Positions 8,390 through 59,231 of a DNA stretch of 64,000 nt are shown here, one piece after another. The stretch is from Rhizophagus irregularis. Its lineage: Eukaryota > Glomeromycota > Glomeromycetes > Glomerales > Glomeraceae. The notes under the pieces are model-generated. The model searched no databases, was not told the DNA's origin, and saw only the letters and a program-made list of their open reading frames with translations. The first letter of the stretch is position 1. Every line of letters begins with the position of its first letter. Location: assembly GCF_026210795.1 (NCBI RefSeq), contig NC_089444.1, positions 3,276,501-3,340,500 on the forward strand. Reading direction: 5' to 3'. A program made the position numbers and the translations under genes.

Positions 8390-8764
8390 ACATTGAATTC
8401 AGTAACTTTTTATTAAATCAAAAAAGTTTCGAAATTTTCTTTAAAAAACATTTTTTAACATTAAAAAACATTTCTTTTTTATACTTTGTGAAGAAAATCA
8501 GTTTCGGCGTGGATACTGTTTCTCTAAGTGAAGTTTCGAAAGATTTTCAAAACTTTCTTATAAAAAAATGTTTTTTAACAATAAAAAACGTTTTTTTTAA
8601 TATTTTTTTTTGCAGGAAATCAGTTCCGGCGTGGATACCGTTTCCCAGATAAAGTTTCAAAGGATTTTTGAAACTTTTTTCAAAAAATACATTTTTATAC
8701 TAAAAAACGTCTTTTTTATTGATTTTTTGTTTAGGGAATTGGTTCCGGTGTGGATACCATTTCC
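8390..8764 (+). repeat. Micro-exon-like array, left part
   Basis: Three units are seen before the inner transposon: acceptor-like ends GTGAAG, TTTTTTGCAG and TTTGTTTAG, each followed by a segment like GAAATCAGTTCCGGCGTGGA then TACCGTTTCCCAG. After each comes a GT/AT-AAAGTTTC donor-like site, an AAGTTTC...GAAACTT hairpin and an AAAAAACGTTTTTT-type hairpin. The array continues at 13943 after the insertion; the 9-bp TSD ACCATTTCC lies within a unit. Confidence 0.7.
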
Positions 8765-9179
8765 AGCATAGCGAACATGCTTTATATCACTTTGACGATC
8801 ATTTGCCGATCACAAGTTTCATTTTATTAAAAAATGATTAAATTATGAAAAAGTGCAAGGCAAAGTAAATGCCTAAATAGGAAAAAAATAAAATATGCCA
8901 CCTTTTATTGTTGTATAACTTTAAATTAAATAATTTATATAATTTTTAATTTTTATATGCAAAATTATTAATATGTGATAATTTGAAGTTTCGGATAAAA
9001 ATTGAAGGCCGAAGCCGAATACGCAAAGCCGAAACTTGAAATTTTGCATGAACATTCCTTTTATTATATATAATCTGTAAAAAAAATAATGCAAGGTTTC
9101 GACCTATAATGCAGGTTTTTTGCTTATAGAGAAATTAGCCAATTATTTGTTATTAATATATTTCTAATAAAAAAGATTA

Positions 9180-9530
9180 TTTACATCATTAAAGATAATG
9201 AAAAACTTTTAGTTGAAGATGAAGATGATAATAGTTTAAGTGAAGATAATAATGATGAGAATATTGAAAATAATTTAGAAATAATAGTAAGTAATATAGA
9301 TAATCTGTTTGAAATATTATACTAAACATGGGTTAAATTATTAATTGCCAATTCGGATAAGATCGGCACTAATTTATTATAGAAATTCAGGGCGAAAATT
9401 TTCCGATTTATTAAGGTAGCACGAATATTACAAAAAAGGACCTCTTATAACAATGCAAAAAAGTTCCCGGTAACCCCACATTTTTCCACGTTACTTACTG
9501 CATGAATACATAAGGAAAATAATAATGTCA
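9180..9530 (+). other. Acidic reading-frame fragment, uncertain
   Basis: Between the inner transposon's left end and its transposase, plus-strand codons give a Glu/Asp/Asn-rich run (LLVEDEDDNSLSEDNNDENI) that stops after about 50 residues, followed by broken frames. It may be the remains of a second, opposite-strand gene of the inner transposon. Nothing identifies it. Confidence 0.2.
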
Positions 9531-9813
9531 AAAAAAAATATTTTTTATTGACTAAAAAAAAACTTTTATTTGCACGCACGTCAGATTCCTGCCTTCTTAT
9601 ACTACCTATGCTACAAAAAAAATTTCTTAATTCACGAGTTTCAAAGTAACTATTCCAAATTTTATTAGACAGTAAGTTTGTATACAGGTTTTTAGCATAC
9701 TTTATGAAATATTATGACGCTTTAGTATTTTCCTCGTTATGTTTATTATAATATTATCGTACAAATTTGAAATAATAAATTTTATTTTCTTGAATGCGTA
9801 AGAAATTTAATTT

Positions 9814-12800
9814 CTAGGTATGTTCTATTTCTTCCATATTCCTAAAAGCCATAGATTGTTTCCATTTTCGTGAAAAAGTTGTAATCCAGTTGGCAATAGT
9901 TGACTCCTTTGGAATATCATCCAGGCTAATTTCTCCTTCATATCCACGGCGCAATAATTCATTTCGCATTTCTTGAGCTGACATTTTTTGTCTGGGATTA
10001 GCCGTTCCTGTATGAAACATACACTCGAGTAACTCTTTTACTTCAGGTACCATTCTTTTCACTGGTGTTCTGATCTTTTGATTTTCTTTTAGAGCCCATC
10101 CTTTATAAAATGATTCATGACTAAAAGAATAGTTTGAACGCGTTGGTAATATTTACAGCTTAGAAAATTATATACAAAGAGCGATACCTCTTTGATTTTG
10201 GAATAGTATCTGTTGGTGAATTGGTTGGAACAACAATTTCTGCACTCTATTTATTAGTTATTATCAATTACATTACCATACCCTAAATGAAACTACTGTA
10301 TTTTATATAATCAGAAACTACTCACTGATTCTTCATTTTCTTTGATTTCAGAATCATCATCATCTGACAAATGTTGGATTAGTACAAGAACTTCCTATTT
10401 TGAGATGATACAGTTATTGAAACCATACCTTGTTTTTTGATGCTTGATGTTATCCAAGGTTTGTTTGGTTTTGTATGTTGAGTAATTATTGGGTTTGGCT
10501 TGACAAAAATCCGTTCTTTAGCAATTTTTTGTATTTTACTAGGTGAAAATTTATTCCACAAACCAAACCCGGGAAGAGCTCTTCCATATATATAGCCTGC
10601 TTCGTCAGTATCATTTGGCCAGACCCATTCTGCCCAATTTGTAATTCCTTGTATAGTACCCAAAGTACTTTTACGATCTATTTATAATAAAGTATGTAAT
10701 TTTTTTTTGATTTTTGATAATATAGTAAATCAATTCAATCACAAACCTTGTGAACGATTAGGTTGAATGTGTGCTACATGAGTACCCGCTAGATCTTTTA
10801 TTGCATCTTCAATATTTTCGCCAGAAGTAATATCATACCCTAGTTTTACGTATCTTTTGATTGCATGAGTTATCTCATAAATAAATGAAATAATTTGATA
10901 AATGCTTTGCAAATTTTTTTCAAAATTTAAAATATCAAGTATCAAATATTTTATTACCTGCGCATGATGAGAGTCTATCGTTGTCTTGGCCTCACCCGCT
11001 TCCAAAAATATCCAATTTTTTATGCTAATATTATACCATTCCTTCCAATATGATAATATTATCATCAGTTCAGTATTGTGATAATGAGGTCCGTTATCAG
11101 AAATTATGGTAATCCATGATGGCTTCTTTTCAAGAGTTTCTATCACACCATGTAATGAAGAAGCAGTAAACCAGGCGTCCTGTTTCGTGTCATTGGACCA
11201 ATGATCGAATGCTTGAATATTTAGATTTTGTGTTTCAGAATTTTTGGTATAAATGAGTATTGAATGGAGACTCCAGCCACGTTTGCCAAAAAATTCAGAT
11301 TTCGTTTCTCTTGCACTTTTAGGTAGAATCCTCATTTTATAATCTACTATCAACAGAGCTTCATCTGAATCAAGTTGGAGGAGATTCGAATTTAGCTGAG
11401 CATTCAAATATGTTTTTCGGGCATGGTGGGACATAAAGGATATTAGTTGTTTTTTATATTCTTCAAGATCTTGATAATGCATTATATCCAGATTATTTTG
11501 TAATTTCACAAAAAATTCAAATAAACTTTCACAGCTTTGGCAGATTTTTGGGTGGTCTTGATTACAATCACCAAATGCATGTCGAAGACAATGACTTACA
11601 CAGGGAATATGAATAGCGTTGCCCATATCATCAATTTGTAATTGTTTGGTGTAATCTCTATGAAGGTATCGTTTTAAAATTTGTGAATCATTTACCAATT
11701 CTTTCTGTTTTATTATTTATCAATGTTTATATTAGTAAAGTGTTGAATTGAATTTTGTATACAATGAAAAAAATAATAGACTTACCCGAATACCTGGATC
11801 TGTAACATGACTTTCAATAATTTTTTCAATTTCGGCAAATACTGAATAACCACATTCATTACATGTCGTACATAGTCCTCCAAGATCTTCTTAATATTGG
11901 AATCGCCCATCATCTAAACGCGTCATAAATGATGTACGTTGCATACCATTGGGAAATTGCTCATGAAATTTTTTCCATAATGCCTGCTTATGATCTTGAA
12001 GATATAATACAGGTAATCCACTTTTATTGTCAGTTTTATATGAGCTCATATTTACATTTCTTTTATCTGCGAAAAAAGATTCAAATTGACTTAGCATTTC
12101 TTCTTTTAGTTTGATACGATGAATAACTGGTTTTTCCAATAGAGGTGCTCCATAACCATTAATTCGCGCATGTTTTCTAGATTCAGAAATGGTATGTCTT
12201 CCAACCTTTCAATATATAATGCAATAATTATAATTACTATACAACTATTAATATTAGTTTTTTATTATAAACAATCATTGTACTTACGTTCAAATTTGTT
12301 TCTAATTTAGAATAAGAAAATTCATCTGCAATAATTGATAAAACCCTACGTTTACCATCACAATTCTGCTTATTATCATCCAATGCACGTCTAAAAGAAC
12401 TCCAAAAAGTTTTAGTTTTGTTGGGCATGTAAATAGAAGCGCTGGTAAGAAACCCTATTTTGCTAAGTTGTTGAAGTGTTGCACGATCTTGTTCAGGTTG
12501 GGATGACCTAGACCAAAATTGATACTAACAATAATTGTTTGTTAATATTCAATATTATTTTATATAAAATTAGATGATAGATGTATTACCTCTGATTCTT
12601 TATTTGACCAAGGAGTTACGTTATGGCTACCAGCATCTCGAAGCATAGATTGCCTTGCTCTTAATTCTCGATCACCAAATTTATGATTTTTTGGATATAA
12701 AATTTGCAACTGTGAATATAGTTCAACGACTGGACTTTCTTGTTCAAGCCAATCAAGAAAAAACTGATGCCAATTAAGATTTGATATTGTTCTCCGTTTT

Positions 12801-13607
12801 AAATGGTAATCATAAAGTGATTTCATAATAGAATAATCATTCCAATTTTTGGGAAAACACGAGGGTAATTTTGCTACTTTATGCTGATGAATGAGGGTTT
12901 GCACCAAAGAATTTTCAAGGCCAAAAAGTTGATCTCCATTATATTTTTTCATTTTGCTCTGATTTTTCCCATACAGCAATTGGTGTTTCGCCCTCAAATT
13001 TTTTTTTCATTTGATTATCTTGATAAATTTCAAGAATACATTTATCTTCCTTGATTTTAGATACATAAATTGCTTGTTTATTACTTTTAAATTTGTACAT
13101 GAAAGACGATTTGTATCCAGGACCAGCATTAAGCCAGTTTGCTTGAGAAGAAATTCCTATTCCGTATACAAATATTTTCAGTGAATCAACCAAAATTAAA
13201 ATAGGAACAAATAAAACATCCTTTAAAAGTTGGTGGATAATGTCTTCATCTTGCCACCCTAATACTAAAGGACCTGAAAATCGCGTCCCATTTTCAAAAA
13301 TTTGCGCGTATACCGTAGAAATTGCTTTAGAAGGGTCATTTTCTATTTGACTAATATATGTATCACTTTGGCACAAATATCCAGGTACCGCAACATTATT
13401 TTTGTTTCCAACAACAATAGTTATATAAAAGTCACGATTATTCAGACAAGTTTTTGTTTTTTGACCAACACGTAGGGGAAAGTAAGTACCATTTTCTTTG
13501 TCTGTTGTTATTTTTCACCAATAACGAGAATATGGCCCATAGTGAAATTCTTCAATTATTGAACCGAAATCAACTAGACTAACTGTAATTAAGCAGTGTT
13601 TTGGCAT
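9814..13607 (-). pseudogene. Multi-exon DDE transposase-like gene, degraded
   Basis: Start MPKHCLITVS at 13607. Exons near 12590-13607, 12288-12524, 11786-12205, 10747-11704, 10322-10677, about 10185-10252 and 9814-10140 have consistent GT-AG borders. Exon 3 ends with a CxxCxxC cluster (LCTTCNECGY). Exon 4 has CVSHCLRHAFGDC and ICQSC, then an RNase H-like core: LLIVDYKMRI (first Asp), IISDNGPHYHNTEL (second Asp), FLEAGEAKTTIDSHHAQ (third acid). The last exon is helix-rich (ANPRQKMSAQEMRNELLRRG ... STIANWI), perhaps DNA-binding. Defects: TGA at 13517-13515, TAA at 11893-11891, a frameshift in an A-run near 12950 and probably one near 10400. Family not recognised beyond DDE type. Confidence 0.65.
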
Positions 13608-13942
13608 GAATATTGGTCGCGCGCATCAGATTCAGAAAAGCTTTGAATATCATAGTGATAACTATCCCCAAATTTTATTATTACATATATAGTCACATGG
13701 TGCCGATCTTATCCGGATCATCAATTAATATAATTATTAGTATTTGTATTAATTTTTATGTTTTATATAAATTTTTAATAAAATTAAAATTCTGTGAAGT
13801 TATTTGTAAATTTTAAACACTTATTATATTTATTATTGTGTAAAATTGATCTGTCACGACATATGTATTATGTGATAAGATCAAATAAATGATCAGCAAA
13901 TGATCGGCAAATTTGTGATAAAATAGAGATGTTCACTATGCT

Positions 13943-15560
13943 ACCATTTCCCAGGTAAAGTTTCGAAAGATTTTTGAAACTTTCTTATAAAAAAATGTTT
14001 TTTAACAGTAAAAAACATTTTTTTTATTTATTTTTGTAGGAAATCGGTTCCAGCGTGAATACCGTTTCCTTAGGTGAAGTTTCGAAGGATTTTTAAAACT
14101 TTCTTAAAAAAAAACATTTTATAACTAAAAAATGTTTTTTTAAATATTTTTTGTTTAGGGAATTGGTTCTGGCGTGGATACTGTTTCCCTAGGTAAAGTT
14201 TCAAAAAATTTTAAAACTTTCTTAAAAAAAAATGTTTTTTAACTAAAAAACGTTTTTTTTTTGTTTTTTTTGCAAAGAAAATCAGTTCCGGCATGGATAC
14301 CAATATTCTAGGTAAGTTTCAAAACTCTTTTGAAACTTCCTTTTAAAAAAACATTTTTAACGTAAAAAAATGTTTTTTTTTGTTTTTTTTGCAAAGAAAA
14401 TCAGTTCCAGTGTGGATACTGATATTCTAGGTAAGTTTTGAAACTCTTTCAAAACTTTATTTTAAAAAAAAACGTTTTTAACGTAAAAAATGTTTTTTTT
14501 TTGTTTTTTTTTTGCAGAAAATCAGTTCCGAAATGGATACTGATGTTCCAGATAAGTTTTGAAATAAAAATTCGAAACTTTATAAAAAAAAATGTTTTTT
14601 AATATTAAAAATGTTTTTTTTTCATTTTGTATAGGAAATCAACTCCAACGTGGACGCCAATATTCCAGGTAAGTTTCAAAACTAAAGTTTTGAAACTTTT
14701 TAATAAAAAATTTTTAATGAAACGTTTTTTTATATTTAATTATAGGGATATCAGTTCCGGCGTGGATACCAAATCCCAAAGTTAAGTTTCGAAAATTTTC
14801 GAAACTTTAATATAAAAATATTAATTTTTAACATTTTTTTTATTTTTTTGTAGGGATATCAGTTCCAGCATGAATACCGAATTCCAAAGTTAAGTTTCAA
14901 AAATTTTCAAAACTTTAATATATAAAAAACGTTTTTATACTAAAAACGTTTTTTTTTATTATTTTTTATATAGGAATTCGGTTCTGGTGTGGATACCGAA
15001 TCCCAAAGGCAAGTTTTGAACAATTTTGAAACTTTAATAAAAAAACGTTAATTTTAACATTTTTTTTATTTTTTTTGTAGGGATATCAGTTCCAGCGTGG
15101 ATACCGAATCCCATTGGTTAGTTTCGAAAAAGAATTCAAAACTATTTAAAAAAAACATTTATTAACATTTTTTTTTATTATTTTATTGTAAGGAAACAGT
15201 TCTGACTTGGATACCGAATCCATTGGTTAGTTTCAAAAAAAAATTTGAAACTATTAAAAAAAATGTTATATTAACATTTTTTTTTATTTTCTTTTGTAGA
15301 GAATCAGTTCTACCGTTTCCCCAGGTAATGTTTCGATAGATTTTCAAAACTTACTTAAAAAAAAACGTTTTTAGCTAAAAAATGATTTTTTTATATTTTT
15401 TTTATAGAAAATCAGTTCCGGTGTGAATACTGATATTCCAGGTAAAGTTTCAAAAAATTTTTGAAACTTCATTTTTTTTATTAAAAGAAATGGTTGACCA
15501 ACCATTTCTTTACTTTTTTTGTAGGTTTCTTCTTTGGATTTTATCAGATCGGGTAAATTT
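13943..15560 (+). repeat. Micro-exon-like array, right part (about 13 units)
   Basis: Units recur every 100-121 bp, with acceptors for example at 14038, 14157, 14277, 14397 and 14518. The order is polypyrimidine-(G/T)AG, a segment of about 34 nt reading [GA][GA]AATC[AG]GTTCC[GA]GCG then TGGATACC, donor GTAAAGTTT or GTAAGTTTC, hairpin 1 (AAGTTTCGAAA...TTTGAAACTT), hairpin 2 (AAACGTTTTTAAC...GTTTTT), polypyrimidine. A segment of 34 nt (14040-14073 and 14159-14192) is not a multiple of three. All units lie on the plus strand, opposite to the host kinase gene. Some donors are broken (ATAAGT, TTAAGT). Confidence 0.7.
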
Positions 15561-16106
15561 CTTTTAAACCCAATTTTTTTATTTAAAAATGAGTTATTAG
15601 CCATTTTCTCCTTTTTTAGTAGTTTTCTTCAGACTTTTATCAGGTTAGGTGAGGATTATGGTTGGATGATAGATGGTGGATGGTAAATGGTGTATATAAA
15701 TGATAGATAGATAATAATTTAATATGCAATTTTTAATAAAATGAATTAATAAAATTTAATCAATAAATTGTTATTATAAAAATTAAAATCAGCTAAATGT
15801 ATAAAAATTGGTAATAATTATTAGGTTTATTAACAATCGTCAATTTGATTTTACCGATTTGTTGCCAATTTTACTGATCGATTTGTTGACAAGTGGCAGG
15901 CGTTACGGTGCAAATCGTTTATAATGCCAATTTTTTTGGTACTGATCGGCTAAGGTCAGACCAAATTTCGTCCAACATTTGGCAATTTAAAATTTTGCCA
16001 AAATGGACTATTCCGACCAGTGTTTTTTAGCCTAAATATAAATAAAAGAGATAGTAAATATATTAATTAAAAAAAAAGTATTTAAATATATAAAGAAATT
16101 TCATAC

Positions 16107-30980: not shown

Positions 30981-31703
30981 CGGTACGGTACGAATTTGCA
31001 AACCTGTACGGTACGGTTGATCACCCATACAAAATTACAAAATTTGATCAACATGACCTTACCGTACCATACTGACACTATAATAAAGAGAAAATCAGTA
31101 CTGACGGTACATTTAGCATATAATTAATTGGACACCAGTGTCCATTTTAATAATTTGGACACTAATGTCCAAAATGTTCATTTTGATAATTTGGACACCA
31201 ATGTCCAAAATGTTCATTTTGATAATTTAGACACCAATGTCCAAAATGTCCATTTTGATAATTTGGACACCAATGTCCAAAATGTTCATGATTTTTGTAA
31301 TTTGGACACCAATGTTCAAAATGTTCATTTTAATAATTTGGACACCAATGTCCAAAATGTTCATTTTTGTAATTTGGACACCAATGTTCAAAATGTTCAT
31401 TTTTGTAATTTGGACACCAATGTCCAAAATTTTCATTTTAATAATTTGGATACTAATGTCCAAAATGTCCATTTAAAACAATAACCGTACTGTACTGTAC
31501 TGGTTCTATATATAGAGAGATTATTATAGAGCCAGTACGGTACGGTACAGTTGGTTAAATTTTATGGTTGATCATTTCGTACCGTACCGTACTGGTTCTA
31601 TATATAAAGAGATTATTATAAAACCAGTACAGTACGGTACGAAATGATTATCACAAAAATTGATCAACCGTACCGTACAGGTTTGCAAATTCGTACCGTA
31701 CTG
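30981..31703. mobile_element. TIR element with GGTACGGTACGAATTTGC ends carrying a minisatellite
   Basis: Left CGGTACGGTACGAATTTGCA, right (reverse complement) CAGTACGGTACGAATTTGCA. The pairing continues through AACCTGTACGGTACGG and TTGATCA. Further nested copies of GTACCGTACTGG lie on the right. The flanks GGATAAT and GGATAAAT suggest a TSD of about 8 bp with one indel, which would fit hAT, but this is weak. The interior is the minisatellite at 31135-31482. No transposase. Confidence 0.6.
31135..31482 (+). repeat. Minisatellite of palindromic TTTGGACACCAATGTCCAAA units
   Basis: Nine to ten units of 36-39 bp, each containing the palindrome TTTGGACACCAATGTCCAAA followed by ATGTTCATTTTGATAA. 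Because most units are multiples of three, a chance 118-codon frame of NVQNVHFDNLDT repeats stays open, and frames on other phases stay open too. I regard these frames as by-products of the repeat. Confidence 0.85.
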
Positions 31704-45084: not shown

Positions 45085-46104
45085 TTATTTAAATTGTATG
45101 ATAATAGGATTTAAAGAGGCTTCTAATGTAGAAATAAAAGCCTCTGTTCTCTCAGCATTACCCCTCTTCAACACTCCAGTATCTATCGCGGACTCTTTCA
45201 GTCAATTCGAACACAGTAAGTTTCCGACTTTTGGCTTTTTTTTGTTGTTCTGTTTGTATAAACTTTATCACTAATTCACGATGTCATATACTTCAAACCC
45301 GCTCTTCTCAAATATTTTCTGAAACATTCTCCATACATCAGTAGTTAATAATTTCACATCTCCATACATATGTTCGTGAAAAATATGTTTGCACAGTAAC
45401 AAGTATCAATTGCGAAACAAACAGTAACAATCAAGTGAAGTCAAACCCGGTGCACCTTTACCTTTCTCCAATCTATCCATTATGGCACAGGCCTCTTTAA
45501 TAAGTAGATGTTGAAATGGTAAGGGGAATTTGTGAATCTCCTCGATAATATCCTTTTCTACATTATAAGCTGATACTTTTTTGACACGAAAGTCAAAGGC
45601 GGCACTTTTGGAATCAGATTGTTTTTACAATCAATGGCAACAATATTATGGACAGCATCTAAGATGAATGAATAAACAAAAAGTGAGTGTCTGAGTGAAT
45701 TAATAAGAGTAAATCGGCAAACGTTACATAGAAAATTTGTGTTAGTATGTAATTACTAATTACCTTTAGTATGGAAAAAAAGAAAAAAAATTGCAAATTT
45801 TATAGATTCAAGCATCAAAATAAGAGGCAAAAGGGTGGAAAAAACAACAAAAAAGTAGAATTTTACCAATTAAACCATGCCATCAGCAAGTTTGAAAAGC
45901 GTTGATTCACACCAGTATACGCGTTGATCAACACCAGCTAGTTGTTCAACGCGATTAACAATATTAATCAACACCCGTATACTGGAGTATATCAACGCAT
46001 AATGTTAATATACGCGTTGTTCAACTCTAATGTGTAGTTCAACGCCATATATTAACACAATTATATATATATTTTAATTAAATTATATTATTTATTTTTA
46101 CTCA

Positions 46105-46178
46105 CCTTAGGAACCGAACCGAATACATCAACATAATACTATTAGTTATCTCACAATCTAACCACTGTACTATTTAAT
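46105..46178 (-). ncRNA. tRNA-like SINE head (candidate)
   Basis: On the minus strand, TAGTACAGTGGTTAGATT resembles a pol III A box, and CGGTTCGGTTCCTAAGG about 40 nt later resembles a B box (GGTTCGANNCC). The spacing is tRNA-like, but acceptor-stem pairing is not evident and the region in between does not make a good anticodon arm, so this is not an intact tRNA. The flanks are (TA)n-rich. It may be a tRNA-derived SINE fragment captured by the CACTA-like element. Confidence 0.35.
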
Positions 46179-46334
46179 TTAAATATATATATATACATAT
46201 TAAAATTAATATCTAAAAAACATTTATTTCGGAATACTTTATATCACGTGTATCACATGATATTGGATTTAATAATTACTGCTGCGGCTGCGGTATGGCA
46301 AAAAAAATAATTAAGCTTTTTTTGGCAAAGCTTA

Positions 46335-46690
46335 ATTTTTTTTTTTGCCCCCTTCCCTTTCGTTTTCTATTGCCCTTTCGTTCTCCCCTTCCCTTTCATT
46401 TTCCCATAATCCTTTCGTTCTCCCCTTCATCCCTATAAAAAGTTCTATCCGTTATTTCTGTAAAAACCTGTAAAAATGAGCCTTTTATAGATCCATTCAC
46501 GAAAAATGATAAATTCCGTAATTAAGGTTATTTAATTCCAGAGAGAAGAGTCTTTACGGAAAGATGGAATATAAAAATGGATTATCCCCATTTCCCTTTG
46601 TTCTCCCCTTCCCTTTCGTTCTCCCCTTACGTCCCTTTCACTTTCCCCTTTCACTTCGTCCCATTTTCCCTTTCATTTTCATCCCGGAAT
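46335..46690. repeat. Pyrimidine-rich tract with CCCCTTCCCTTTCGTTCT repeats
   Basis: Plus strand CCCCTTCCCTTTCGTTCTCC-type repeats are interrupted by a normal stretch with TCTGTAAAAACCTGTAAAAA. The placement next to a hairpin/micro-exon array matches the CACTA-like element at 7934-16022, where a CTTCCTTCCTTCCTTC tract precedes its array. Confidence 0.75.
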
Positions 46691-47400
46691 GTTGGCTAAT
46701 AAACATTCCGATTTGTTTTTTTATTTTATTTTTTAACGAAACGTCAAAAAACGTTTCGAAATATTTCTTTTTTTCATATTTTTTTAATTGGAACATTGGC
46801 TAACATTCCGATTTACATTTTTATTTCATTTTTTAACAAAACGTTTTTAACGTTTTGAAAATAAATTTTTTTTTCATTTTTTTAACAAAACGTTTTTTAA
46901 CGTTTCGAAAATAAAATTTTTTTATTTTTTTTTTTAATCGGAACGTTGGCTAACATTCTGATTATTTTTTTTATTACATTTTTTAACGAAACGTTGAAAA
47001 ACATTTCGTAAATAACTTTTTTTTCTTTTTTTTTAATCGGAACATTGGCTAACGTTCCGATTTACATTTTTTTTCTTGTTTTAACGAAACGTTTTTAACG
47101 TTTCGTTAATAACATTTTTTTTTCATTCCTTTTAATCGGAACGTTGGCTAACGTTCCGATTTTTTTATTTTTTCTTTTTTTTAACGAAACGTTTTTTAAC
47201 GTTTCGTAATATTTTTTTTTAATTTTTTAATCGGAACGTTTTTTAACGTTCTGAAATAATTTTTTTTTAATTTTTTTTAATCGGAACGTTGGCTAACGTT
47301 CTGATTTTTTCATTTTTTAACGAAATGTTAAAAAACGTTTCGAATTTTTTTTTTTAATTGTTTGTTTTTTAACGAAACGTACCTAACGTTTCGATTTTTT
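46690..47400 (+). repeat. Tandem hairpin array, two alternating stems
   Basis: Units of about 90-125 bp alternate stem 1, TCGGAACGTTGGCTAACGTTCCGA or variants, with stem 2, ACGAAACGTTTTTAACGTTTCG or variants, separated by T-rich spacers. Stem sequences drift between units while self-complementarity is usually kept. No AG|GT-flanked segments are present here, so it may be a precursor of the adjacent micro-exon array. Confidence 0.8.
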
Positions 47401-49035
47401 ATTTTTTTTTAGGACCGCGGCTTTCTGGATGGCTCACGGACAGGAATTTTGAAGGTAAACCTTCAAAATTTTTTTAATTGTTTGTCTTTAACGAAATGTG
47501 TCTAACGTTTCAATTTTTTGTTTTTTTTAGGACCGCGGCTTTCGGATGGCTCACGGACGGGAATTTTGAAGGTAAACCTTCAAAATTTTTAATTTTTGTT
47601 TTTAACGAAACGTATCTAATGTTTCATTTTTTTATTTTTTTAAGACCGCTTCCTGGATGATTCACGGACAGGTAAAATTATTTTTTTTTTAATTTATTTT
47701 AACGAAACGTGATTAACGTTTCATTTTTCTTTCTTTTTTAGGTCTGTGGATTTCTTTTTCTAAACGGGATTTTGAAGAACTTTAATGTTATGGTAAGTTT
47801 CGCAACGTTTCGTTGCGAAACTTCATTTATTTTTTAATTTTTTTTTTAGAAACGTTTACTAACGTTTCTTTAAATTCTTTTTGTAGGTCTTTTTTTTGGG
47901 AAACAGGAAAAAGGGTAAGTTTCAAAGCGTAATTTTACGCTTCGAAACTTTAAAAAAAAATTTTTTTTTTAGTTTTTTATAAGGAAACGTTTCTAACGTT
48001 TCCTTTATTTTTTTTGTAGGTTTTTTTTGGAAAATGGAGGAAAGGGTAAGTTTCGAAGCATTTTGCTTCGAAACTTTTTAAAAAATTTTTTTTTTAATTT
48101 CTTTTATAAGGAAACGTTTCTAACGTTTCCTATATTTTCTTTGTGTAGGACCTTCGGCGTGTTCAAACTTCGGATCTTGGATATTGTAAGTTTCGAAGGG
48201 TTTCCCTTGAAATTTTAATGTTTTTAATTTTTTATTAGGAAACACGTTTACTAAATATTTCCTTTATCCTTTTGTAGGATCGGAAAGTTTGGAACGGAAG
48301 AATGATTGTGTAAGTTTTGTAATGTTTCATTACGAAACTTAATTTTTTTTATTAGGAAACTCTTACTAATGTTTCCTTTATTCTTTTTTTAGGTTTCAGG
48401 AAACAATGTTAGAAAAGGGTCTTTAAATGGTAAGTTTCGTAAGAAACTTCCATTTTTTTTTTGTCTTTTTTTCTTTAAGATACATTCTAACCGAACGTTT
48501 CTCTTATTTTTTGTAGGTTCGGCCAACCTCCGGGACTTGGAATTTTGGAAAACGGTAAGTTTCGTACATTTCGTTACGAAACTTCCGTTTTGTTTTATTC
48601 TTTAGTAAGAAACATTTTAACTGAACGTTTCTCCTTTTTTTGTAGGTTTGGTTTCTGGGAATATGGAAATTCAAATAATGTAGGTTTCGTAACATTTTTT
48701 TGGTACAAAACCCATTTTTTTTATTTTTTTTAATTAGGAAATGTTTACTGACATTTCCATTTTCTTTTTTTTATTAGGCCTCGGATTTTGAATTGCGGAT
48801 GGTAATGGGTAAGTTTCGCAACGAAACGTTACGAAACTTTATTTTATAATTTTTTTTTTAAGAAACGTTGACTAACGTTTCTTTTCTTATTTTTGTAGGT
48901 CTACGGATTTTCTGGTAGACAAAATGGTAAGTTGACTTTTTTTTAAGAAACGTTTGTTAACGATTCCTTTTTTTTTTGTAGGCTTTTTGAAATATGAATC
49001 AGATCATGTAAGTTTCGTTAACGAAACTTTTAATA
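47400..49035 (+). repeat. Micro-exon-like array of 14 units with structured introns
   Basis: Acceptors lie at about 47411, 47531, 47643, 47741, 47886, 48019, 48148, 48277, 48392, 48517, 48644, 48777, 48897 and 48980, usually TTTTTGTAG or TTTTTTAG. Each is followed by a 26-51 nt segment and then a donor, mostly GTAAGTTTCG. The intron-like part holds a hairpin that includes the donor (AAGTTTCGAAGC...GCTTCGAAACTT) and a second hairpin GGAAACGTTT...AACGTTTCC. The segments are largely unrelated to each other except the first three (GACCGCGGCTTTC...), while introns are near copies. Segment lengths (for example 42, 41, 27, 51, 28, 26, 37, 32) are not phase-constrained. Confidence 0.72.
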
Positions 49036-50891
49036 TTGTATTTTTTTTAATCGAAACCCCACCTTGTTATGGTTATGTCACCAGGGGCGCTATGTCAACA
49101 GAAATTTAGTACGTTGATCGCTTAAAAATCCGTGGCAATCCAATTATAACAAGAGTTTTAAACATTTGACAATTTACATTACTGAGAAATATCAATTTGT
49201 AGTGTAGTTGGATAGATAATGAATGTATTTGTATTGTACTATTACTACTATATATATAAATAAATTTACAATATTTTACAATTAATAAAATTTATATGTT
49301 GCTATACGTGTTTTTAATATCGATATACGCGTTTTTATACAATGTATACACGTTTTTAAACTATCGTTGTTTTACTATGTGTAGTTTTACACTTAAATGA
49401 GTGTTTATTTACGCGTTTTTCAACGTTTTTAAGTGGTGTTGATTGACAAGTAGTTCGTTTCCCTACGTTTTTTGGTGTTGAGCAACACATGGCGTTTTTC
49501 AACACTTTATACGCCTGTTTAAAACTTGCTGATGTGTAAGGACGATGTTTTCCTTTTCAATTCACTGTGGTAAGATTCTAACAGATTTGTGGAGGTGACT
49601 TGCAAAAGCAAAGGGGAATGTTAGCACGCCCACAATGCCCATTGTTGTGTATTTTTCATGTAATTCCTTCTAATATAATTCTGAATAGTAGGAACAGGAC
49701 AGTTGTTAATAGCTTCTTGGATCAGTTTTTCGCAACCGATCTTTGTCCTTTTATGCATTGCTGCAATCATAACATCACGGGGTTTTTTTTCATGAATTTT
49801 TGACATCCACGTCCGCATAATATGTACAACACAAAGTAATACTTCGCACTCTTGCTCACCGGTGTTTACACCAGAAAAAACAATTTTAACACTTTTAAAC
49901 TCAACACTACTTTGATCAGATAGGATGTAGCAGAAAGTCCAATGGCAATAGCTGCGAATTTTTTTTAAAGCTTCTGCAACAGTGTCACTATCCTCACTGC
50001 TCACAAAAAAGTGTGCACCTATATTTTAGCATCCATAAGTGTTGCGAACATACAGTGTAAATAGACGCCAATCATATCTATTTGTTTTATGGGTGGAATC
50101 AATTAGAGTCAACCATCCATGATTCTCAAGTTTCTCAAGTTGCTTAGGATGTGCAAAAACAATGCCCTTAGTAGATCGTTGGTGGACACGATAAATTTCA
50201 ACTTGATATCCTTGCTCTTTTAAATACGATACTGATTGTGAAATATCTAACTTTAAATCAGAATTGCCAACGAGATGAACTTCCATAGGTCCACGAACTT
50301 TATACTTAATGTTCGTTACTTCCTTGTGCTTTAATTCTTGTGCACTTGCACCAAGACCTAATTCAATCGTTGCATATTCTTTAACGGCAGCAGTAATTGC
50401 TGGAGGCAAATAATTTTGACTGCTTTTTTTTCAACTAAAGTTCGAATAACTTGAGGACGTTTAAGCCTATCGACATCTAACAATAAGTGTGTATGGTTGG
50501 AAGAGTCTTTATAACGTTCAACTTTAACTATTTTCAACGAGACTAACCATTCAACTTTAATTTTAGCATGTCATAATCCAGATGGTCTTGTTTTCATTAT
50601 TTGGCGTTTTTCATTAGAAATATTTTCTTTTTGTCATGTACTAGAGTCTCGATACTTTGTAAAACGGCAGGTAAAAATCTTCCAAAAGTTTCCATTTACT
50701 TGTTTATATGAAGTCCATTGTGTCCATATATTTGAAACTAATGGCCACCAATTTTCATCAAAATCCTCCATTTGAACTTCCAAAAAGCAATTTACATCAA
50801 AAAGGAGATTCCACTTTTCTTCTGAAGTGATATTTGTCATTTGCACGGCAACCAAAGTGGTAGCGGAAGTATTAACCGAAGAGACAGACAT

Positions 50892-57452: not shown

Positions 57453-59231
57453 TAGAGCTCCGCAACCTGACCTGACAGATCGGGTGACCCGACGGGTTGA
57501 CCCGAAATATTCAGGTCAGGTCATCAATTTCATGACCTGACACGGGTCGGGTCAGTGCTAGTCGGTACCCGACCCGACCCGTTGACCCGACATATATTTG
57601 GGTCAAATAAATTAAAAACACCGAAACTAATAGTTCCGGAGTTTTTACATGTAAAATCAAAAGGAAAAACGCCGGAACTAATGATTCCGGCGTTTTTACA
57701 TGTAAAATTGAAAAAAAACGCCGAAACTAATAGTTTCGGCGTTTTTACATGTAAAATCAAAATGAAAAACGCCGGAACTAATGATTCCGGCGTTTTTTTA
57801 CATGTAAAATTGAAAAAAAAATGCCGAAACTATCAGTTTCGGCGTTTTTACATGTAAAATCAATATGAAAAACGCCGGAACTAATGATTCCGGCGTTTTT
57901 ACATGTAAAATTGAAAAAAAAACGCCGAAACTAATAGTTTCGGCGTTTTTACATGTAAAATCAAAATGAAAAACGCCGGAACTAATGATTCCGGCGTTTT
58001 TACATGTAAAATTGAAAAAAAAAATGCCGAAACTATCAGTTTCGGCGTTTTTTATGTAAAATCAGTATGAAAAACGCCGGAACTAATGATTCCGGCGTTT
58101 TTACATGTAAAATCAAAATGAAAAACGCCGGAACTAATGATTCCGGCGTTTTTACATGTAAAATCAAAGAAAACGCCGAAACTATCAGTTTCGGCGTTTT
58201 TTATGTAAAATCAATATGAAAAACGCCGGAACTAATGATTCCGGCGTTTTTACATGTAAAATTGAAAAAAAAAAACGCCGGAACTATCAGTTTCGGCGTT
58301 TTTACATGTAAAATCAATATGAAAAACGCCGGAACTAATGATTCCGGCGTTTTTACATGTAAAATTGAAAAAAAAACGCCGAAACTAATAGTTTCGGCGT
58401 TTTTACATGTAAAATCAAAATGAAAAACGCCGGAACTAATGATTCCGGCGTTTTTACATGTAAAATTGAAAAAAAAACGCCGGAACTATCAGTTTCGGCG
58501 TTTTTATGTAAAATCAATATGAAAAACGCCGGAACTAATGATTCCGGCGTTTTTACATGTAAAATCAAAATGAAAAACGCCGGAACTAATGATTCCGGCG
58601 TTTTTACATGTAGAATCAAAAAAAACGCCGAAACTATCAGTTTCGGCGTTTTTACATGTAAAATCAATATGAAAAACGCCGGAACTAATGATTCCGGCGT
58701 TTTTACATGTAAAATTGAAAAAAAAAACGCCGGAACTATCAGTTTCGGCGTTTTTACATGTAAAATCAATATGAAAAACGCCGGAACTAATGATTCCGGC
58801 GTTTTTACATGTAAAATCAAAATGAAAAACGCCGGAACTAATGATTCCGGCGTTTTTACATCTAAGATCGAAACAAAAATGCCGAAACAAATAGTTTCGG
58901 CGTTTTTATATATAAAAACAAAAGTAAAACGCCGGGACCCGACGTTTTTTCAATAAAAATTAAAAAAATCTTTTTTTTTAATTAAAAACGTCGAACCTGA
59001 CGTTTTTTGTATAATTAATAAAAAAAAAACGTTACATAACGTTTTTTTAATTGAAATATTTAATAATAAAACTTCGGGTAACCTGAGTTACCCGAAGTGA
59101 CACGAATACTTTCGGGTCAAATGGGTCAGGTCGGGTCAGAACGGTTTACCCGACCCGACCTGACCTGAAAAAAAATTTTCGGTTCAGGTTAACCAGGTAA
59201 CCCGACCCGACCCGACCCGTGCGGAGCTCTA
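57453..59231. mobile_element. Non-autonomous hAT element (1,779 bp) with internal palindromic satellite
   Basis: TIR TAGAGCTCCGCA at both ends, with the 8-bp TSD CATCTAAC at 57445-57452 and 59232-59239. Subterminal zones are dense in GACCTGACC, GGGTCGGGTC and CCCGACCCGA words in both orientations (57470-57595 and 59085-59220). The core (57609-58960) is a satellite of hairpins. No transposase. Both ends and the rebuilt host frame confirm the boundaries. Confidence 0.9.
57609..58960. repeat. Palindromic satellite, about 28 units of 46-48 bp
   Basis: Each unit is a near-perfect hairpin: AAAACGCCGGAACTAATGAT then TCCGGCGTTTTTACATGTAA (type G), or AAACGCCGAAACTATCAGTT then TCGGCGTTTTTACATG (type A). 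Types alternate as G, A or G, G, A. Paired changes (GGAACT with TTCCGG versus GAAACT with TTTCGG) keep the stems complementary. Spacers are AAAATCAAAATG, AAAATTGAAAAAA or AAAATCAATATG. Long frames on both strands (TNDSGVFTCKIKMKNAG) are artefacts. Confidence 0.92.

Follow-up and report, generated by a model that had tools for sequence, protein, structure and literature searches.

Organization of the array and its carrier

The window, a 64,000-nt stretch of Rhizophagus irregularis contig NC_089444.1, carries on its plus strand an array of fourteen short exon-like segments separated by intron-like spacers (47413-49007) which, judging from copies of the surrounding sequence, makes up the inside of a DNA transposon of the Plavaka type that occurs dispersed in the genome (45881-49534, plus strand). 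The original prediction overlooked this carrier. Its description of fourteen plus-strand segments of 26-51 nt was borne out, each being flanked by AG and GTA, with lengths for segments 1 through 14 of 42, 41, 27, 51, 28, 26, 37, 32, 37, 38, 34, 31, 28 and 26 nt and with thirteen introns of 55-105 nt between them. Segment borders were taken from direct reading of the sequence and from a parser with weights trained on the window array.

Segments 1 (47413-47454) and 2 (47531-47571) are followed by introns 1 (47455-47530) and 2 (47572-47644), both with the donor GTAAACC, and in both units the exon end pairs with the intron start (AATTTTGAAG and GTAAACCTTCAAAATT on the two sides of the border), the donor lying in the hairpin loop. 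Segment 3 (47645-47671) precedes intron 3 (47672-47741), which has the donor GTAAAAT and no visible donor hairpin. The common donor that had been described, GTAAGTTT or GTAGGTTT, was present in ten of the fourteen units (4-12 and 14) and absent from units 1-3 and 13. The claim that the introns are structured held for part of the array. Folding, scored as z for the eleven introns other than 2 and 3, indicated strong structure (z -4.0 to -7.4) in introns 4 (47793-47886, z -7.4), 5 (47915-48019, z -6.4), 6 (48046-48148, z -6.8), 8 (48310-48392, z -6.0) and 12 (48809-48898, z -4.0), each with two hairpins. Structure was moderate in intron 10 (48555-48645, z -2.4), which has hairpins, and in intron 11 (48680-48777, z -3.7), which has two hairpins and the donor GTAGGT. 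Introns 1, 7 (48186-48277, z -0.4), 9 (48430-48516, z -1.1, weak hairpins) and 13 (48927-48981, z +1.0) were without structure by this measure (z -1.1 to +1.0), and unit 13 has the donor GTAAGTTG and has lost its donor hairpin. The segments ahead of these introns were placed by the parser at 47742-47792 (segment 4), 47887-47914 (5), 48020-48045 (6), 48149-48185 (7), 48278-48309 (8), 48393-48429 (9), 48517-48554 (10), 48646-48679 (11), 48778-48808 (12) and 48899-48926 (13), while segment 14 (48982-49007) is followed by a last donor hairpin, GTAAGTTTCGTTAACGAAACTTT (49008-49030). To call the spacers near-identical was an overstatement, as introns 4-12 were 74% alike in pairwise comparison (61% when shuffled), although they were indeed more alike than segments 4-14 (55%, 49% when shuffled).

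Three further plus-strand features lie between the 5' end of the transposon and the array. An upstream module with CACGTG-like motifs (AATTAAGCTTTTTTT.GCAAAGCTTAATT; 46238-46344) is shared with L030, L045 and L046, and is followed by CT-rich tracts (46346-46690, with TATAAAAA at about 46434) that might be promoter-like. Tandem hairpins with CTAAC loops and no exons occupy 46700-47400. An exclusion of AG from 46700-47410 was considered and left unused; AG is rare there in most copies that have the region, but CT is also low and the repeats confound the comparison.

The transposon is bounded by the terminal inverted repeats CATCAGCAAGTTT (45881-45893) and AAACTTGCTGATG (49522-49534), and among the matches listed homology between copies began and ended exactly at positions 45881 and 49534 or no more than a few bases away. 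The same terminal repeats enclose a copy of 7.8 kb end to end (L029) with an open reading frame (ORF) encoding a Plavaka transposase (PF18759, E 2.4e-32). No ORF of at least 100 aa was found between 45881 and 49534, and the window element was therefore classed as non-autonomous. Sixteen copies have both ends, and by eye 15 of them carry a 2-bp target duplication; the exception is the window copy, which is flanked by GC and TG and lacks the duplication. A genome search with the array returned 141 matches from the best 40 of 621 candidates, from which 20 stretches were taken, and searches with the two transposon ends covered the best 40 of 207 and the best 40 of 171 candidates and so give lower bounds. 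The Plavaka family has been described as prevalent in R. irregularis (PMC11075540). On the minus strand of L029 (1012-3073) there is an apparent second multi-exon gene, for which three ORFs were compared with Pfam and gave no match.

Splice grammar of the array

A generic splice grammar consisting of a donor, a CTRAY branch site, a T-rich tract, YAG and length limits was used to score the array; it was untrained on the array, yet was composed after the array had been viewed. The plus strand of the window array scored 73.6 with ten chained exons corresponding to segments 5-14, the donors of units 1-3 being below the grammar limit, while 100 dinucleotide-preserving shuffles reached at most 4.5 with one exon and the reverse strand scored 0. 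The original prediction had named a lack of excess over shuffled sequence, together with a lack of transcripts and junction reads, as grounds for its rejection, and the excess seen here leaves it standing on that count. A branch-like YTRAY was located 21-26 nt upstream of the acceptor in 12 of the 13 introns with no AG between, the exception being intron 7, where the nearest YTRAY is 50 nt from the acceptor and one AG intervenes. The window array therefore combines GT-AG borders, a branch site, a pyrimidine tract and proper spacing as in spliceosomal introns, and the grammar score and branch spacing together support the earlier view that these are mini-exons which could be spliced. The tandem hairpins of 46700-47400 scored 0.

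Hairpins and RNA structure

In 29 hand-picked introns, the donor hairpin (helix 1) was 98.2% paired with both-side changes at 7 of 13 pairs, and hairpin 2 was 78.9% paired. The covariation score was reached by none of 500 shuffles and the number of further pair types by 48 of 500, a baseline that related sequences may exceed even when they have no structure. As deamination moreover erodes CpG columns, this result indicates that the palindromes are kept and does not point to any one cause. A comparison able to separate RNA-level from DNA-level pairing, made in 210 hairpins (one row of the set being a duplicate), counted 79 G-U vs 64 A-C pairs (p=0.24), no excess and no sign of selection at the RNA level. 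A looser count, with 38 vs 20 among private changes and 51 vs 16 for the majority sequences, was set aside as biased by T-rich loops. A folding switch at the donor, as originally suggested, is conceivable; the stems are kept. Folding of the exons gave no consistent signal, and an Rfam search of 45800-49700 in the window gave three matches, none of which reached the gathering score.

Such palindromes could also belong to a DNA-level hairpin satellite, for example of protein-binding or cruciform repeats, in which any resemblance to splice sites would be incidental. Hairpin arrays devoid of the grammar do adjoin the array at 46700-47400 and occur again at 57609-58935, and the stem pairs are without strand asymmetry. 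However, among 151 distinct donor palindromes from 23 loci (21 comprising the window and loci picked by array similarity, and two picked by transposon ends), GT was located directly at one end or both in 135 and at one end only in 133, leaving 16 with GT at neither. The steady spacing from branch site to acceptor and the lack of grammar on the reverse strand are likewise not what a satellite would predict. Nor is the array tied to a single transposase, as it recurs in an element with other ends, and the transposase-bearing L029 has no array (grammar 5.7, one exon). An origin as a satellite is considered improbable.

Recurrence of the array and a second carrier

The trained parser chained at least six introns in 17 of the 20 element sequences, with some units misparsed. 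Subfamilies A1, A2, B, C and D were assigned by eye, A2 being cut by hand after automatic misparsing, and homology of the segments can be followed across them despite drift. In the majority sequences, unbroken chains comprise 10 units for A1, 11 for B, 7 for C and 9 for D. Locus L037 scored 60.3 in the splice grammar against -0.5 on its reverse strand (unshuffled).

A like array was present in L045 and L046, both of them copies of one element whose ends are different (TA.CACAGGTC ... GACCTGTGTA) and for which a TA target is possible from the two copies. These arrays scored 67.5 and 72.6 in the grammar, with 1.5 on each reverse strand (likewise unshuffled). In BLASTN comparisons the upstream module of the window was 84-85% identical along 108-111 nt to those of L045 (E 1e-23) and L046 (E 9e-25) and 82% identical over 215 nt to that of L030, a Plavaka-type member, and it has the same position and direction ahead of the CT-rich tract in both carriers. 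CT tracts precede the arrays in L045 and L046 and also in a further array-bearing stretch, L041. The occurrence of a like array with the same upstream module in an element with unrelated ends suggests that the cassette is not bound to the window transposon. Within L045 (5180-5830) there is a second type of donor hairpin in which the exon end (TTTCGAAG) pairs with the intron start (GTAAATATTTACCTTCGAA) and GTA is in the loop, and units of both donor-hairpin types occur in this one element.

Across the genome, GGT followed by the exact donor palindrome was found at 523 places and the palindrome alone at 981, with 0 and 9 for the respective reversed-pattern controls. The original prediction had offered introner-like proliferation, in which each intron would itself be mobile and insert into other sequence, as a source of the array. 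The introns are structured and more alike than the segments, as in published descriptions of fungal introner-like elements. Nevertheless, ten of ten lone-looking places, taken from about 100 listed of the 523, fell by eye within further arrays, and none proved to be a solitary intron of a gene native to the host; the grammar chained one to six exons in nine of these places and two in L041, a longer stretch around the tenth. The homology of segments between subfamilies fits duplication of whole units, and the sole gene found adjoining such an intron, in L041, is a captured fragment. Insertion of single introns into genes was not upheld in these ten places, and we give introners hardly any credence as the origin of the array.

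The L041 fragment (in L041 3300-5500, contig C1) comprises 477 bp of a host mitochondrial carrier gene that is 98% identical to its parent on C31, retains the parent's own intron and matches PF00153 (E 7.3e-12). An array acceptor immediately precedes it, and its end lies, by eye, inside a donor hairpin. This is a DNA-level capture, seen once. Locus L034 was considered as an intron of a native mitochondrial carrier gene and was ruled out when the parent gene (L043) revealed a captured fragment; for that reason this case is no proof of splicing.

Conservation between and within subfamilies

Filtered private changes in 14 copies amounted to 3/725 in donors, 6/367 in acceptors, 6/608 in branch sites, 56/3934 in exons, 73/4661 in stems, 25/3074 in spacers and 3/1202 in tracts. 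The corresponding changes between subfamilies were 1/120, 2/60, 8/98, 61/621, 36/722, 49/525 and 12/191, as sums of A1-A2 (eight units), A1-B (eight units) and B-D (four units, with one pairing doubtful), to which the filters for private changes were not applied. These comparisons left out L020, L022, L023, L024, subfamily C and array units 1-3. Between subfamilies the donors were better conserved than the exons (Fisher p=2.3e-4), a comparison that favours donors because the units were recognised partly by them, and stems were likewise better conserved (p=7e-4). Relative to private changes, pooled splice sites had 3 changes between subfamilies vs 9 private, and exons and spacers 110 vs 81 (p=0.036). 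Stems gave p=0.005 in the same comparison, a value inflated by CpG sites, which account for 45 of the 73 private stem changes. The counts are suggestive, although not firm, evidence of selection.

It is conceivable that the array is a dead passenger, spliced at one time, then picked up by its transposon and multiplied with it, and that recent descent and DNA-level palindrome repair keep its appearance with no present function or selection. The predominance of CpG among private stem changes would be expected of methylated silent copies, and palindromes could persist by template switching with no selection at all. Ten of 126 scorable GT/AG units were broken in single copies and three more were gapped, and the filtered selection test is weak, reaching p=0.036 in the pooled form only. 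Against such a passenger, exons and spacers differed by 9-10% from one subfamily to another whereas donors had hardly changed, and four of the majority sequences chain their units unbroken. This explanation is rated unlikely, though it is one to be taken seriously.

Deposited gene models and coding potential

Two deposited proteins were annotated on these arrays, and their gene models splice at borders of the segments described here. RIR_jg2243.t1 (89 aa) was found with the translated joined segments, as the one candidate, and its pieces are exact on the window copy; they comprise the 3' part of segment 3, segment 4, segment 6 minus one T, the end of intron 7 from about 48241 together with segment 8, and then segments 9, 10 and 11, the last followed by TAA, while segments 5 and 7 are skipped. 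No single GT-AG intron path spells the whole protein, segment 6 being off by one T. For OCT59_000045 (96 aa, one of 14 candidates), 95 of 96 residues were placed on copy L016 as nine pieces, all of them following acceptors that had been parsed for subfamily B, with two donors differing and one segment skipped, and copies L017 and L015 match it at 91/96 and 90/96. No Pfam match was obtained for either protein.

The set containing RIR_jg2243.t1 is described as having been made with AUGUSTUS and RNA-Seq intron hints, with models having any support termed standard genes (PMC6123716), while OCT59_000045 appears to come from the annotation of PMC10234402, described as based on RNA-Seq and refined with long reads. 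Deposition was rejected as evidence of expression, as the accession range GBC10881-GBC54553 covers as many entries as the complete isoform set given in PMC6123716.

As these models imply, the arrays might be a protein-coding, fast-evolving orphan gene family, and joined frames did exceed those of letter-shuffled segments in 3 of 11 sets (as long in 6 of 300 shuffles for the window, 0 for B and 6 for C). Compared with random orders of the segments, however, no set among the 11 had a clearly longer joined open frame. The window gave 83 aa against a mean of 87, and the closest set, B, gave 99 aa against a mean of 88 with 87 of 300 random orders as long; the A2 set of this test includes misparsed units. 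Since the same open frames arise in random segment order, no frame appears to be kept, and the excess over letter shuffles indicates segments that are stop-poor in general. Only 3 of the 14 segment lengths are divisible by three, so that neither the symmetric exon lengths nor the kept frame of protein-coding micro-exons was found. The skipping of segments by both models and their lack of Pfam matches also argue against an orphan gene family, which is regarded as very improbable. These results support the earlier suggestion that a coding role is absent or incidental. In both models a non-coding array within a transposon was probably read as a gene, and with at least two deposited proteins probably having this source, lineage-specific gene counts may be inflated.

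Proposed explanation of the array

On balance we favour, with somewhat better than even confidence, a reading in which the array resembles a gene and is carried as cargo by a non-autonomous transposon of the Plavaka type, probably being spliced and probably lacking a coding role, with a related cassette in an element with other ends. The cargo would consist of the upstream module followed by tandem copies of one old unit of exon and intron, the typical intron beginning with a hairpin that has the GT donor at its foot and continuing with a second hairpin tipped with a branch-like CTAAC, a T-tract and AG. A plus-strand transcript would be cut by the spliceosome into micro-exons, and the intron grammar would be maintained while exon sequence, length and frame were free to drift. 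Spliceable introns may have been selected, perhaps because a spliced transcript is treated as that of a host gene; that introns shield the transcript and are kept up for this reason is a guess.

Several results weigh against this reading in addition to the recognition bias in donors, the limits of the shuffled baseline for covariation and the lack of a G-U excess given above. Neither an acceptor for the last donor (49008-49030) nor a transcription start was found in the element. A second array in the window failed the grammar with no excess over shuffles (13942-15660), and the locus L032 scored 14.4, less than the 20.1 of its opposite strand. Acceptors (2/60, p=0.11) were not clearly better kept than exons between lineages and branch sites (8/98, p=0.71) were no better conserved, while against private changes neither donors alone (p=0.36) nor acceptors alone (p=0.16) stood out. 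A stronger outcome of the unfiltered selection test (17 private donor changes and none between subfamilies, p=0.0015) was discarded as inflated by alignment slips. Finally, both deposited models are products of gene finders, which need an open frame, and both skip segments and partly use other sites.

A bolder form of the proposal, speculative and rather unlikely in our estimation, would be a selfish intron-array cassette in which splicing itself is the only conserved product. Such a cassette would move between unrelated DNA transposons and mimic multi-intron host genes, thereby easing escape from silencing, and its landing places would turn pieces of host genes into exons.

Relation to known systems

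The window element shares inverted ends with Plavaka DNA transposons (CMC/CACTA group, PF18759), including ends in common with a transposase-bearing copy, and the family's 2-bp duplication is seen in its relatives; it differs in lacking a transposase and in having a micro-exon array as its interior. Schistosome micro-exon genes have tandem, very short exons with lengths in multiples of three and encode secreted proteins. The window array is similar in its tandem short exons, whereas these have neither lengths in threes nor a kept frame. Pack-type transposons carry gene fragments, to which the carrier-gene fragment of L041 is comparable, although that capture was seen once and within a ready-made intron array, and no gene capture was noticed in the window copy. 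Introners, including fungal introner-like elements, and sister stwintrons resemble the window introns in being multiplied, symmetric or structured spliceosomal introns, but are described as integrating at new positions in genes (PMC9860276, PMC8469720), whereas the window introns are in tandem with micro-exons inside a transposon. No description of such arrays was found among the papers listed by searches of the open-licence text of PubMed Central.

If spliced, the arrays would be natural tandem test beds, with a dozen slightly differing introns per transcript whose donors sit either at a hairpin's foot or in its loop. A cassette common to unrelated transposons would raise the question of why a number of introns is worth carrying. 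The idea that introns shield a transcript from silencing would become testable in a fungus for which a map of the cytosine methylome has been reported (PMC10234402).

Other repeats in the window

The second array (8418-8764 and 13942-15660) has exon-like segments that resemble one another (GAAATCAGTTCCGGCGTGGATACC...) and gave 221 matches elsewhere from the best 40 of 312 candidates. By eye, an element nested at about 8771-13941, with the ends CATAG.GAACAT, interrupts this array; four ORFs of the nested element were tried, with no Pfam match above the cut-off. The hairpin array at 57609-58935 is a 51-bp palindrome satellite (AAAAACGCCGGAACTAATGATTCCGGCGTTTTT) within what appears to be another repeat element and has no splice grammar. 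At 31139-31474, a tandem 36-bp repeat with the hairpin TTTGGACACCAATGTCCAAA is present in about nine copies.

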